This document shows, piece by piece, positions 60,669-64,000 of a stretch of DNA of 64,000 nt; the stretch's first letter is position 1; every line of letters starts with the position of its first letter. Origin of the DNA: Nocardia goodfellowii (GTDB lineage Bacteria; Actinomycetota; Actinomycetes; Mycobacteriales; Mycobacteriaceae); assembly GCF_017875645.1 (NCBI RefSeq), contig NZ_JAGGMR010000001.1, positions 1,550,001-1,614,000 on the forward strand, read 5' to 3'. Made by a program: the position numbers and the translations under genes. The notes under the pieces are model-generated. The model was not told the DNA's origin. It ran no database searches and worked only from the letters and a program-made list of their open reading frames with translations.

Positions 60669-60899
60669 TCAACTCTGCTCGATTTCATCCCGACGCCAAC
60701 GCAATTCGCGTTGCACCCGAGTAGCGGCGATCCCCCGAAGGGCAATTGGTCGCGATTGGCTCTTCATCGGCCGCCGATACTCAGGCAGATAACGGAATTC
60801 TGTACTTCCGTCGGGGTTTCGTAGAAGTATCGCGGCCAGGCGGCCGGCTTTGTAGACATCGGCGCGGCCGATATGCCGGAAGTCCTCGAAGCTGGTCAC
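60669..60899 (-). CDS. HipA N-subdomain fragment / HipS-like protein
   Basis: A 76-residue protein. Residues 1-44 (VTSFEDFRHIGRADVYKAGRLAAILLRNPDGSTEFRYLPEYRRP) match the first subdomain of HipA toxins, whose usual length is about 400-440 residues. The remaining 32 residues (MKSQSRPIALRGIAATRVQ...) are not recognisable HipA. No kinase domain follows: the fadA2 terminator lies 9 bp downstream. GTG 60899 overlaps the hipB stop as GTGA. Either a truncated hipA relic, or a HipS-like antitoxin as in HipBST systems that has lost its HipT kinase. Confidence 0.72.
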   Translation of the reverse strand: MTSFEDFRHIGRADVYKAGRLAAILLRNPDGSTEFRYLPEYRRPMKSQSRPIALRGIAATRVQRELRWRRDEIEQS

Positions 60900-61096
60900 A
60901 GGGAGACGCCCAGCCGTAGGCCGACGACATCTGCCACGGTAGCCACGGTAGCGATGCTTGTGGTTCCGGTGCCGTGTTCGATGTCCCGGACCGTCCGAGT
61001 GGACGTTCCAGCGAGCTCCGCGAGTTGCTCCTGGGTGAGGCGATGGCGGCGTCGTTCAGCTCGGATCGCCTGTCCGATGTCGATTAGCTCTGTCAC
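60896..61096 (-). CDS. hipB: HipB-like XRE antitoxin/repressor
   Basis: A 66-residue HTH protein: IDIGQAIRAERRRHRLTQEQLAELAGTSTRTVRDIEHGTGTTSIATVATVADVVGLRLGVSL, with the XRE helix pair LTQEQLAELAGTSTRTVRDIEHG and the typical HipB dimer strand at the end. GTG 61096 has GGAGG five bases upstream. HipB proteins bind operators upstream of their own operon and neutralise HipA. Four perfectly phased palindromes upstream are its probable operators, and a TAGAAT -10 candidate (61148-61153) lies between the first two. Confidence 0.85.
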   Translation of the reverse strand: MTELIDIGQAIRAERRRHRLTQEQLAELAGTSTRTVRDIEHGTGTTSIATVATVADVVGLRLGVSL

Positions 61097-61110
61097 CCGG
61101 CCTCCGATAA

Positions 61111-61309
61111 CGGCGAGATCCTGCCGATTGCGGTAATACTGCTTCCGATTCTAGGTGTTCGTAGCTTAAATCGGCAGAATATTGCCGTTCGCGGCTAGAT
61201 GGACGAGTCATCGGCTGGGCGAGCAGAGAGAGCGGCAGCATTCTGCCGAATTCTGCTCATACTTGCGAGAATGGGATCCGCATTCCTGTCAACCGGCAAG
61301 ATTCTGCCG
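61111..61309. promoter_or_regulatory. Array of four 16-bp palindromes with exact 61-bp period
   Basis: CGGCGAGATCCTGCCG (61111-61126), CGGCAGAATATTGCCG (61172-61187), CGGCAGCATTCTGCCG (61233-61248) and CGGCAAGATTCTGCCG (61294-61309) share the form CGGC-N8-GCCG with an AT-rich centre. Their starts are exactly 61 bp apart, while the 45-bp spacers are unrelated, so this is not a simple tandem repeat. The nearest copy is 15 bp before hipB, the farthest 9 bp after the stop of the EphD-like gene. The most likely binder is HipB. Confidence 0.85.
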
Positions 61310-61317
61310 ATTTAGTT

Positions 61318-63072
61318 TCAGCGGACCAGGCGGGTGCGCTCGGTGACGAAGCGGACGAGGCCGGGGGCGAAGCGCCAGAGGTAGTACTGGGCGCGGGATT
61401 CGGGGGTTACGGGGACGATCTTCTTGTTCTTCTGGACGGCGCGGACGATCTGGGCGGCGACCTTGTCCGGGGTGTAGCCGCGCATGCGGTAGAGCCGGTC
61501 GTAGCGCTCCCGCATGCGGGCCTCCTGCGCGGGGGAGACGCCCGCCATGCGGGTGGTGCGCACGATATTGGTGTGCACGATGCCGGGGCAGATGGTGCTG
61601 ACGCCGATACCGGCGGCCGCCAGTTCGGTACGCAGGCAGTCGGAGAACATGAAAACCGCTGCCTTGCTGGTGGAGTACGCGGTGAAGCCCTGCTGCGGGG
61701 TGTAGGCGGCCATGCTGGCGAGGTTGACGATGTGTCCGCCCAGGCCGCGATCGGCCATCGCCCCGGCGAAGGCGCGGCAGCCGTTGACGACCCCGCTCAG
61801 GTTGACGTCGAGGACACGCTGGAAATCCTCGGCGGAGGTGTCCAGGAACCGGCCCGCCTGGCCGATGCCCGCGTTGTTGATCAGGACATCGGGCACGCCG
61901 TGCACGGCCAGCACCTCGTCCGCGTGCCGGGCGACCGCCGCCGCGTCGGAGACGTCCAGCCGGTAGGCGTGGCCCATGCCGCCCGCCCCGGCGATCAATC
62001 CGACCGTGTCCTCGGCGGCCGCCATATCGATATCGGAGACCACGATCTCCGCACCGTCCCGCGCGAAAGCCAACGCTGTTTCCCGGCCGATTCCGCTGCC
62101 GCCGCCGGTGATCACGACCAGTTGATCCTCGAAAGGCCTGCGGTGCGCACCCATGCGCGCGCGCCGCAGACTGCGGGCCGGTGGCGCGCCGGCGGTGGCG
62201 TCGATCAGTTCGACGGTCGCGGACGCGAGCAGCTCCGGATGCGAGAACGGCAGCCAGTGGCCGCCTTTCACCACCCGCAGCCAGACTTCCTCGGCCCACC
62301 GATCCTCGTCGGAGTACGCGGACTGCCGCACCGCGGGGTCGCGGGTGCCGATGATGATCTGTACCGGAACTTCGGTGCGGGCGTCCCGCGCGCGCAGCGG
62401 ATTCGCGAACCACGTCGCGCGATAGATGCGTAACCCGTTGACCATGTCCTGCTTGAAGGTCGGCGCGAGGTGAATTTTGTCCGGCCGCGCGCCCTCGCTG
62501 TTGGAAAGGATGGCCCGCCAGCGTTCTTCGCTCATGGTCGTGCGAATCGCCGCGTGCGGCAACGCGGGCAGCGCGAGGATGGTCGAGTAGGCGAACGAGC
62601 CGAGTTGAGCGAGCGGCAGCGCGATATTGCGCGGGGTCGGGCGAGCGAGCCGGCTGCGCGCCCACTGCGCGGTGTGCGCCAGGCTCGGCCCGGACACCGA
62701 GGTGAACGACGCGACCAAACGGCGGGCATCCGGACGGCACACGATTTCCCACATCGCGACACTGCCCCAATCGTGCGCGAGGACGTGCACCGGCTCGTCC
62801 GGGCTCAACTCCTCGATCACCGCGACGTAGTCCTGCGCCAGCTTCTCCACGGAAATATCCAGGGAGCCAGGAGGATTGGTGGACGCACCGTGGCCGCGGT
62901 TGTCCACGCTCAACACCCGGAACCGGTCCAGGAACTCCGGCGCGACGTTGTCCCACAGGTGATGGGTGTCCGGCCAGCCGTGCAACAACAGCAGGGTCGG
63001 CCCGTCCGGCGTCCCCTGCTCGTATACGGCGATGTCTACCGCACCGTTGCGCACCAGGTGTTGGACCACCAT
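61318..63072 (-). CDS. ephD: EphD-like fusion: alpha/beta hydrolase plus short-chain dehydrogenase
   Basis: A 584-residue two-domain enzyme. Residues 1-285 are an epoxide-hydrolase-like alpha/beta hydrolase (LLLHGWPDTHHLWDNVAPEFLDRFRVLSVDNRGHG, nucleophile Asp in LAHDWGSVAMW, His in VKGGHWLPFSHPELL). Residues 305-584 are an SDR (LVVITGGGSGIGRETALAFARDG, NNAGIGQAGRF, Ser in LASMAAYTP, YSTSK). The domain order and length match M. tuberculosis EphD, which acts on mycolate-related epoxides. ATG 63072 is chosen because the upstream in-frame sequence is Arg-rich noise. The gene stops 9 bp from the last HipB-type palindrome. Confidence 0.9.
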   Translation of the reverse strand: MVVQHLVRNGAVDIAVYEQGTPDGPTLLLLHGWPDTHHLWDNVAPEFLDRFRVLSVDNRGHGASTNPPGSLDISVEKLAQDYVAVIEELSPDEPVHVLAHDWGSVAMWEIVCRPDARRLVASFTSVSGPSLAHTAQWARSRLARPTPRNIALPLAQLGSFAYSTILALPALPHAAIRTTMSEERWRAILSNSEGARPDKIHLAPTFKQDMVNGLRIYRATWFANPLRARDARTEVPVQIIIGTRDPAVRQSAYSDEDRWAEEVWLRVVKGGHWLPFSHPELLASATVELIDATAGAPPARSLRRARMGAHRRPFEDQLVVITGGGSGIGRETALAFARDGAEIVVSDIDMAAAEDTVGLIAGAGGMGHAYRLDVSDAAAVARHADEVLAVHGVPDVLINNAGIGQAGRFLDTSAEDFQRVLDVNLSGVVNGCRAFAGAMADRGLGGHIVNLASMAAYTPQQGFTAYSTSKAAVFMFSDCLRTELAAAGIGVSTICPGIVHTNIVRTTRMAGVSPAQEARMRERYDRLYRMRGYTPDKVAAQIVRAVQKNKKIVPVTPESRAQYYLWRFAPGLVRFVTERTRLVR

Positions 63073-63189
63073 CGACCTCACCCCACATCCGGACCGCCGT
63101 TGGTCCTCGGACTTACGTCTCCGGCACCATTCTGTTCCAGTCGTGATCGACCCGAAACCCCACAGAAGCGGTGTCCTCGCGTCACAACC

Positions 63190-63215
63190 GGGCCCGGCGC
63201 CGAATTGCCGGGCCC
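63190..63215 (-). terminator. Hairpin after gnd
   Basis: GGGCCCGGC and GCCGGGCCC form a 9-bp stem with an 8-base loop 18 bp beyond the gnd stop. No T-run follows. Confidence 0.42.
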
Positions 63216-63233
63216 CGGTACAGGATTGAAGCG

Positions 63234-64000
63234 CTACCTGCCGGGCAGCTCGTTGTGCCCGCCGAACGCTTTGCGCATCGCCGAGAGCGCCTTGTCCGCG
63301 TAGAGCGCTTCCCCGCGCGAGGAGAACCGCTGGAACAGCGCCGCCGCCAGCACCGGCGCGGGTACCCCGGTGTCGACCGCCGCGTCGAGCGTCCAGCGGC
63401 CCTCCCCGGAATCGGACACGCGTCCGCTGAACGTTTCCAGGGTGGGATCCGCGTACAGCGCGCTCGCCGTGAGATCCAGCAACCAGGAGGCGACCACCGA
63501 CCCGCGCCGCCACACCTCGGTCACCTCGGGAATGTCGATGTCGTACATGTAGTGCTCGGGGTGGTCGAGCGGTGTCTCCTCGGCGGAGAACTCACCGTTG
63601 TGCTCGGCCCCGATATTGGCTTTGTGCAGGATATTGAGGCCCTCCGCGTAGGCCGCCATGGCCCCGTACTCGATGCCGTTGTGCACCATTTTCACGAAGT
63701 GTCCCGCACCGGCGGGCCCGCAGTGCAGATATCCCTGCTCGGACGTCGAGGGCTCACCCTGGCGGCCCGGTGTCCGCTCCGCCGCCTCGACTCCCGGCGC
63801 GATCGACTTCAGCAGCGGGTCAAGGTATTTCACCTGTTCGGACTCGCCGCCGATCATCAGGCAGAACCCGCGCTCCAAACCGAAGACGCCACCGGATGTT
63901 CCGATGTCGATGTAGTGGATCCCCTTCGGCCGCAGGTCTTTCGCGCGCGTGATGTCCTCGTGGTAGCGGCTGTTACCGCCGTCGATGATGATGTCGCCCG
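63234..64000 (-). CDS. gnd: 6-phosphogluconate dehydrogenase, YqeC type, partial
   Basis: The C-terminal 255 residues of a decarboxylating 6-phosphogluconate dehydrogenase; the 5' part, including the NADP-binding motif, lies beyond the window edge. Visible segments are [51 protein letters not shown], the catalytic [31 protein letters not shown] (Lys and His) and the C-terminal [48 protein letters not shown]. The shorter C-terminal half is the hallmark of the bacterial/archaeal short form (Rv1122 gnd2 type). It yields NADPH and ribulose 5-phosphate. Confidence 0.93.

Follow-up and report, generated by a model that had tools for sequence, protein, structure and literature searches.

A 64 000 nt stretch of the Nocardia goodfellowii genome (contig NZ_JAGGMR010000001.1, positions 1,550,001 to 1,614,000; here called the window) contains what is probably a decayed hipBA operon. 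The kinase gene has been internally deleted, while hipB, its predicted promoter and an upstream array of palindromes that HipB would be expected to bind have been kept. Neighbouring palindromes in the array are separated by 5.5 helical turns. Spacing by approximately half-integer numbers of turns is found in related operons of many bacteria, which suggests a shared ruler.

The array consists of four CGGC-N8-GCCG palindromes that start at positions 61111, 61172, 61233 and 61294 of the window, at intervals of exactly 61/61/61 bp, as an earlier reading made from the sequence alone (here the sequence-only reading) had reported. Numbered outwards from hipB and not assigned to a strand, these operator-like sites are O1 (61111..61126, CGGCGAGATCCTGCCG), O2 (61172..61187, CGGCAGAATATTGCCG), O3 (61233..61248, CGGCAGCATTCTGCCG) and O4 (61294..61309, CGGCAAGATTCTGCCG), with PWM scores of 23.3, 31.7, 27.0 and 29.6 bits, respectively. 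The bare CGGC-N8-GCCG motif is present in the window at chance level (15 copies, 13.6 expected), and the signal is therefore the spacing and not the motif itself. The fuller operator consensus, approximately WTCGGCARNATNYTGCCGAW, and the 61 bp spacing are both non-random. The sequence-only reading took 61 bp to be 5.8 turns, a figure that rests on 10.5 bp per turn. However, negatively supercoiled bacterial DNA is described as having approximately 11 bp per turn (PMC8501960), and an in vivo helical repeat of 10.9–11.0 is given elsewhere (PMC1831498). With an in vivo repeat of approximately 11 bp, 61 bp is 5.5 turns (5.55 at 11.0 bp per turn), and neighbouring sites lie on opposite faces of the DNA. 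The end of O4 is 8 bp before the stop of an ORF for an EphD-like alpha/beta hydrolase-SDR protein (61318–63513, minus strand), placing the outermost palindrome directly behind that gene, as had been noted. A HipB regulon elsewhere in the genome was considered and rejected, as a genome-wide scan returned just 12 single sites, four of which are the array.

The hipB gene (60896..61096, minus strand) has an open frame and encodes a 66 aa TIGR03070-like protein, a predicted HTH antitoxin and autorepressor. It matches TIGR03070 (couple_hipB) with an E value of 8.5e-18 and 64.1 bits, which is under the 71.65 bit cut-off, and HTH_3 at 5.7e-10. It is 66–81% identical to hipB of relatives in which hipA is intact. 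GGAGG (61101..61105, minus strand) is the likely ribosome-binding site. Further upstream, a promoter of the form CTGCCG-N18-TAGAAT is predicted on the minus strand (61177–61148), with the −35 hexamer (61172..61177) within O2, formed by its hipB-proximal arm, and the −10 hexamer (61148..61153) after an 18 bp spacer. These positions were derived from 52 relatives in which the proximal spacing is 60 bp, and the assignment of the O2 arm as a −35 is based on column conservation among them. In these 52 loci, the right arm of O2 is TTGCCG, which is followed by 17 bp and then by columns that fit TAnnnT (A 0.69, T 0.73, with the first T below the listing threshold). The first T of TTGCCG has a frequency of 0.86 in O2 versus 0.53 in O1. 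If transcription starts approximately 7 bp past the −10, O1 would be at about +16 to +31, in the predicted initially transcribed region. Overall, hipB, the promoter and the array look intact in the window.

As had been described, hipB is followed, with a GTGA overlap, by an ORF of 76 aa (60669..60899, minus strand). Its match to Couple_hipA is weak (E 0.14, 13.2 bits, under the 22.5 bit cut-off), and the sequence-only reading had assigned it to the first subdomain of HipA only. That assignment did not hold, as both ends of HipA are matched. Residues 1–41 align to the start of HipA (alignment score 134), covering approximately 41 of the roughly 100 residues of the subdomain, and the last ~20 residues align to the C-terminal end (score 48 with the HipA of G147; best score in 500 shuffles, 38). 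This tail match falls within the last ~30 HipA residues in 19/19 intact relatives. In those 19 Nocardia loci, hipB is followed by an unsplit, intact HipA of 391–398 aa, some of them at the same chromosomal site as the locus in the window. Because both HipA ends are on one ORF, the deletion was internal and in frame. Judged by these alignments, the 76 aa ORF is a HipA kinase of ~397 aa minus ~330 middle codons, retaining codons 1 to ~41 and ~20 C-terminal codons. No kinase gene follows it, and HipA_C (PF07804) was not found anywhere in the 7.98 Mb genome. The PF07804 search used on this genome was positive in 4/14 control genomes; among 14 Nocardia genomes in which PF07804 was sought, five had it and nine, this one included, did not. 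Thus, with an HTH antitoxin gene in first place and palindromic operator-like sites upstream of it, but no full-length HipA kinase in second place, the locus is a remnant of the hipBA family and not a working member.

The sequence-only reading had offered two interpretations of the ORF. One was a solitary antitoxin module of HipB and HipS, which we considered as a hipBST derivative that would act on a distant HipT. A small HipA-N-like ORF coupled to hipB by a translational overlap is what such a module would contain. HipS is described as a protein of ~103 aa corresponding to the N-terminal portion absent from HipT (PMC6581861), whereas the ORF here has ~41 subdomain residues and terminates with the C-terminal tail of HipA. 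The HipS residues said to enter the kinase site, Glu63 and Trp65 (PMC10627512), are beyond the part retained. There is also no HipT kinase gene at the locus, a profile search for a distant hipT returned none in the genome, which has no detectable HipA_C, and HipA is unsplit in the 19 relatives. We therefore rejected this interpretation, which is very improbable. The other interpretation, a truncation that kept an elaborate autoregulatory region, agrees with the internally deleted hipA and the retained array.

Further stages of decay are represented in other Nocardia genomes. Near the same thiolase and/or gnd neighbours, we found the locus in four states: intact, with an internal deletion, reduced to its operators, and empty. 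Intact hipBA is beside thiolase and/or gnd in L002, L005 and L016, and beside thiolase alone in L006 and L020. In L001 (the window locus), L003, L008, L022, L030 and L042, hipB is accompanied by a broken hipA or by none. L035 and L041, and L048, which adjoins the EphD gene, have operators and no hipB, while L024 has neither an operator site nor hipB. A further 16 hipB loci have neither thiolase nor gnd within flanks of ~1.5 kb, so hipBA is found at other chromosomal places too. Operator pairs spaced by 60–61 bp were seen in L034 (G045), L036 (G047), L035 (G046), L041 (G071) and L048 (G118), and hipB was not found in these loci of ~3 kb. Those adjoining the thiolase or EphD gene (L035, L041 and L048) resemble what would remain after the loss of hipBA. 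The EphD-like gene sits between the hipB array and gnd in the window. In several relatives gnd is directly beside the array and the EphD-like gene is absent, and the gene is thus variably present at this site.

A decayed operon is compatible with HipB being under selection here, either as a regulator on its own or as an anti-addiction gene, and not just awaiting loss, a reading that we regard as possible but less likely than not. In the loci that lack hipA, hipB is open (it is altered in L028), and dN/dS is 0.04–0.19 between pairs of these genes (L001, L003, L008 and L030), though with synonymous changes close to saturation. Both hipB and the array have been kept in six loci that have no intact adjacent hipA. 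However, if the loss was recent in each lineage, these dN/dS values reflect the time before it. Complete loss is also tolerated, as the operators-only and empty sites attest, and the genome contains no second strong cluster of sites, only the eight further single ones, five of which were inspected and found to be lower-scoring and inside open frames of at least 100 aa.

The spacing of the operators is conserved. When 150 Nocardia genomes were searched for two operators separated by 42–48 bp (spacing 58–64 bp), the pattern was found in 26, always at 59–62 bp, though one of the 26 (G140) is probably a chance match; the reversed pattern was found in 0/150. A strict pattern gave three matches among 397 genomes of the order, all of them in Nocardia and none outside it. 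The motif drifts in other genera, and a motif-free search was therefore needed. We examined actinobacterial hipBA loci from 17 genera, taking the best 80 of 274 by HipA alignment (two are from one genome). With the Nocardia PWM and chaining that admitted only 58–63 bp, 73 of these best 80 of 274 loci had at least two chained sites, at most three being counted, and 66 had three. The 139 spacings in the chains from these best 80 of 274 were 60 bp (97), 61 bp (39), 59 bp (2) and 62 bp (1). Four sites were found in the window locus, G147 and G128. In a search blind to both motif and spacing, 59–62 or 118–123 bp was the best spacing in 72 of the same best 80 of 274, versus 4/77 control regions located 600 bp further upstream. 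Among the loci that lack a PWM chain, L108 and L123 have spacings of 61 bp, L124 of 122 bp, L131 of 119 bp and L117 of 72 bp; an array was sought in L087 and L132, and none was seen. Operator sequence drifts while the spacing holds, as in L099 (CGGAAGGATTCTTCCG) and L123 (CCGAAGAATTCTTCGG). Loss of the spacing in relatives that keep hipB had been named in advance as evidence against the sequence-only reading, and the contrary was observed. Arrays of 60–62 bp are associated with an ADVYK-type HipA, being present in 3/3 such loci versus 5/68 others (null ≤2); four of those five have similar HipA starts, L189 being the exception. Of the loci with weaker significance, L250, L284 and L230 fit this link, but L179 (75 bp) and L241 (no clear array) depart from it.

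To survey other hipBA families, the motif-free finder was applied to 83 further upstream regions, comprising E. coli K-12, 13 plasmid loci and 69 loci from genomes of the actinobacterial phylum. L180 was too short and was left out, as were phages (two records) and viral contigs, in which P0001 gave 11 E. coli-like hipA loci and A1 none. After peaks near 27, 38, 50 and 60 bp had appeared, the prediction was fixed that spacings of 33–75 bp would be within 2 bp of 38, 49, 60 or 71 bp. The first held-out set, 60 unused loci, yielded 23 arrays at null ≤1/30, 20 of which have a spacing of 20–80 bp. These fall into 16 HipA clusters (45%), 12 with a spacing of 33–75 bp, and 10/12 were on the ladder (P = 0.009; 23/26 per spacing), the exceptions being L245 and L291. 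Most were on the 38–39 bp rung and two loci were on the 60 bp rung; short spacings were 26–27 bp, save two of 24 bp (L286) and 14 bp repeats (L264). The second held-out set comprised 14 plasmid loci, 12 of which are from Proteobacteria, again with the prediction fixed beforehand. It yielded 10 arrays, seven with spacings of 33–75 bp, of which six were on the ladder by median (P = 0.04; 12/15 per spacing), L332 at 52 bp being off it; this set is partly dependent, as L325 is in the 60 bp clade and L334 and L335 resemble L152 and L157. It includes a group at 49–50 bp from Sinorhizobium, Cereibacter, Leisingera, Acetobacter and Vibrio plasmids. Combined, the two sets gave 16/19 on the ladder (P = 0.0006, with the chance rate assumed to be 5/11), but all of these P values are optimistic, as the period of 11 bp and the half-turn phase were recognized post hoc and the members of a rung are partly related.

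We pooled all 145 spacings of 20–75 bp from 73 loci at null ≤1/30, weighted per locus; L175, L183, L264, L287 and L299 have no spacing in that range and were left out. In windows around 28, 38, 49, 60 and 71 bp, which were set afterwards, 132/145 spacings were found and 13/145 were outside. Rung means of 27.3, 38.5, 49.4 and 60.75 bp, divided by 2.5, 3.5, 4.5 and 5.5 turns, give 10.93, 10.99, 10.97 and 11.05 bp per turn. At 11.0 bp per turn, the mean phase was 0.50 for all spacings (R 0.73) and 0.52 for those of at least 33 bp (R 0.71), and at 10.5 bp per turn R was 0.65 and 0.67, respectively, a modest preference for 11.0. The step estimated from locus medians was 11.06 bp (bootstrap 10.8–11.3). 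A Rayleigh test on the 39 loci at 33 bp or more gave P = 4e-10, though it ignores relatedness and two of the medians are artefacts (L154, 27/54; L291, 41/75). An earlier one, on 40 clusters with doubled spacings (54, 77 and 78 bp) mixed in, had a broad best period of ~12 bp. Spacings off the ladder occur in 9/73 loci, namely L154 (54 bp, twice 27), L217 and L219 (41–42 bp), L245 (33 bp), L286 (24 bp), L291 (41 and 75 bp), L327 (67 bp), L332 (52 bp) and L333 (55 bp). The 30 bp arrays of L162, L228 and L235 only just fall within a rung, and L101 (70 and 61 bp), L117 (72 bp) and L201 (72, 62 and 60 bp) include the 6.5-turn rung. On balance, we favour the generalization that HipB arrays across bacteria place neighbours at half-integer turns (2.5–6.5, of ~11 bp), with complexes zig-zagging on opposite faces and the HipA subfamily picking the rung.

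HipB or HipA/HipB complexes are described as binding operators and autoregulating (PMC7029023, PMC6581861), and the N-terminal subdomain of HipA as taking part in dimerization during DNA binding (PMC6581861). In the explanation that we prefer, a HipB dimer would sit on each palindrome, and hipB would be repressed by covering of the −35 at O2 and the transcript start at O1. In relatives with an intact HipA, each HipB2HipA2 complex would touch the one on the next operator, presumably via the N-terminal subdomain of HipA, and such contact would set the operator phase at n + 1/2 turns of ~11 bp, so that neighbouring complexes are on opposite DNA faces. HipA subfamilies would differ in the number of full turns between, this one using the 5.5-turn rung of 60–61 bp. 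Complexes 60 bp apart are ~200 Å apart along straight DNA, and direct HipA contact would thus require the DNA to bend. With just HipB left in this genome, the array can serve only autorepression, and HipB may act alone as an autorepressor that possibly also neutralizes an incoming relative of the toxin. Exact 61/61/61 spacing without HipA fits a recent loss, though HipB might also require the phase by itself.

The spacing might instead be set by the position of RNA polymerase alone, with O2 over the −35, O1 over the transcript start and the operators otherwise independent. The fit of the O2 arm to a −35 with a −10 after 17–18 bp accords with this, but the period extends beyond the promoter, to O3–O2 and, in the window, also O4–O3. 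The O3–O2 distance (60 bp in 44, 61 in 21 and 59 in one locus) is about as fixed as the O2–O1 distance (60 bp in 52, 61 in 13 and 62 in one locus), yet the interval between O3 and O2, the sites aside, contains no column above threshold in the 52 loci and two weak ones in the 13 loci of the 61 bp class. The period is therefore not explained by promoter layout alone, and other families are on other rungs with a similar phase. We consider this explanation unlikely. Tandem duplication of a ~61 bp unit would also produce an even period, as a relic of copying. However, adjacent spacers are as unrelated as the sequence-only reading had found them (27.9% identical, versus 28.0% for spacers from different loci), which contradicts a tandem-repeat origin. 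Spacings of 60 and 61 bp also interchange, and the spacing outlives divergence of the operators, as in L123, leaving duplication with next to no probability. Contact between neighbouring complexes, as set out above, remains our preferred explanation.

Like the window, E. coli K-12 hipBA has several palindromes upstream of hipB, at spacings of 28/39/28 bp, or ~2.5/3.5/2.5 turns at 11 bp, and hence in the same phase. It differs in its motif (TATCC-N8-GGATA), its tighter, mixed spacing and the presence of HipA. The Legionella pneumophila HipBST system is described as having three 18 nt operators with 53 bp gaps, evenly spaced and kept across Legionella species (PMC10653801). That is ~71 bp from centre to centre, or 6.5 turns, a longer rung than in the window, with another motif and a split HipS/HipT. 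For Caulobacter hipBA1 and hipBA2, identical inverted repeats are described as forming a series, with intervals compatible with the higher-order complex of E. coli (PMC7029023), though the HipA system differs from that of the window. The closest counterparts are the ADVYK-type hipBA operons of Nocardia, Arthrobacter, Agromyces and other actinobacteria, which have a homologous HipB and a 60/61 bp array and, in several Nocardia, the same neighbours. Unlike the window locus, they keep the ~397 aa kinase, and three chained sites, not four, are their usual complement (66 of the best 80 of 274). In the accessible text of the CC-licensed literature on hipBA and hipBST operators, even or regular spacing is remarked on only for Legionella and Caulobacter. 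The half-turn operator ladder is proposed here; an earlier statement on phase may exist for the E. coli promoter.

HipBA assembly on promoters bears on the holding and release of the toxin, which has been linked to persistence. If true, a half-turn rule shared by all families would make the layout of any hipBA operon predictable, where so far single promoters have been described, and would suggest that contact between neighbouring complexes is general. It would also be a simple route to HipB operators that needs only the sequence. As the window illustrates, loss of the toxin gene need not take the array and the antitoxin gene with it.

Several other arrangements were seen. Among the loci from the actinobacterial phylum, L217, L218, L219 and L164 have spacings of the 42/31/42 or 42/41 type (those of L218 and L164 at weak significance), ~3–4 bp off the half-turn phase, and are possibly another geometry. 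In L007 (G036), an intact Nocardia hipBA is flanked by two-operator 61 bp arrays, one upstream of hipB and the other immediately downstream of hipA (350–426 and 1866–1942). Finally, the hipBA operons of IncA and IncHI2A plasmids (L152/L334 and L157/L335) have four-operator arrays with spacings of 27 and 27–28 bp, respectively.
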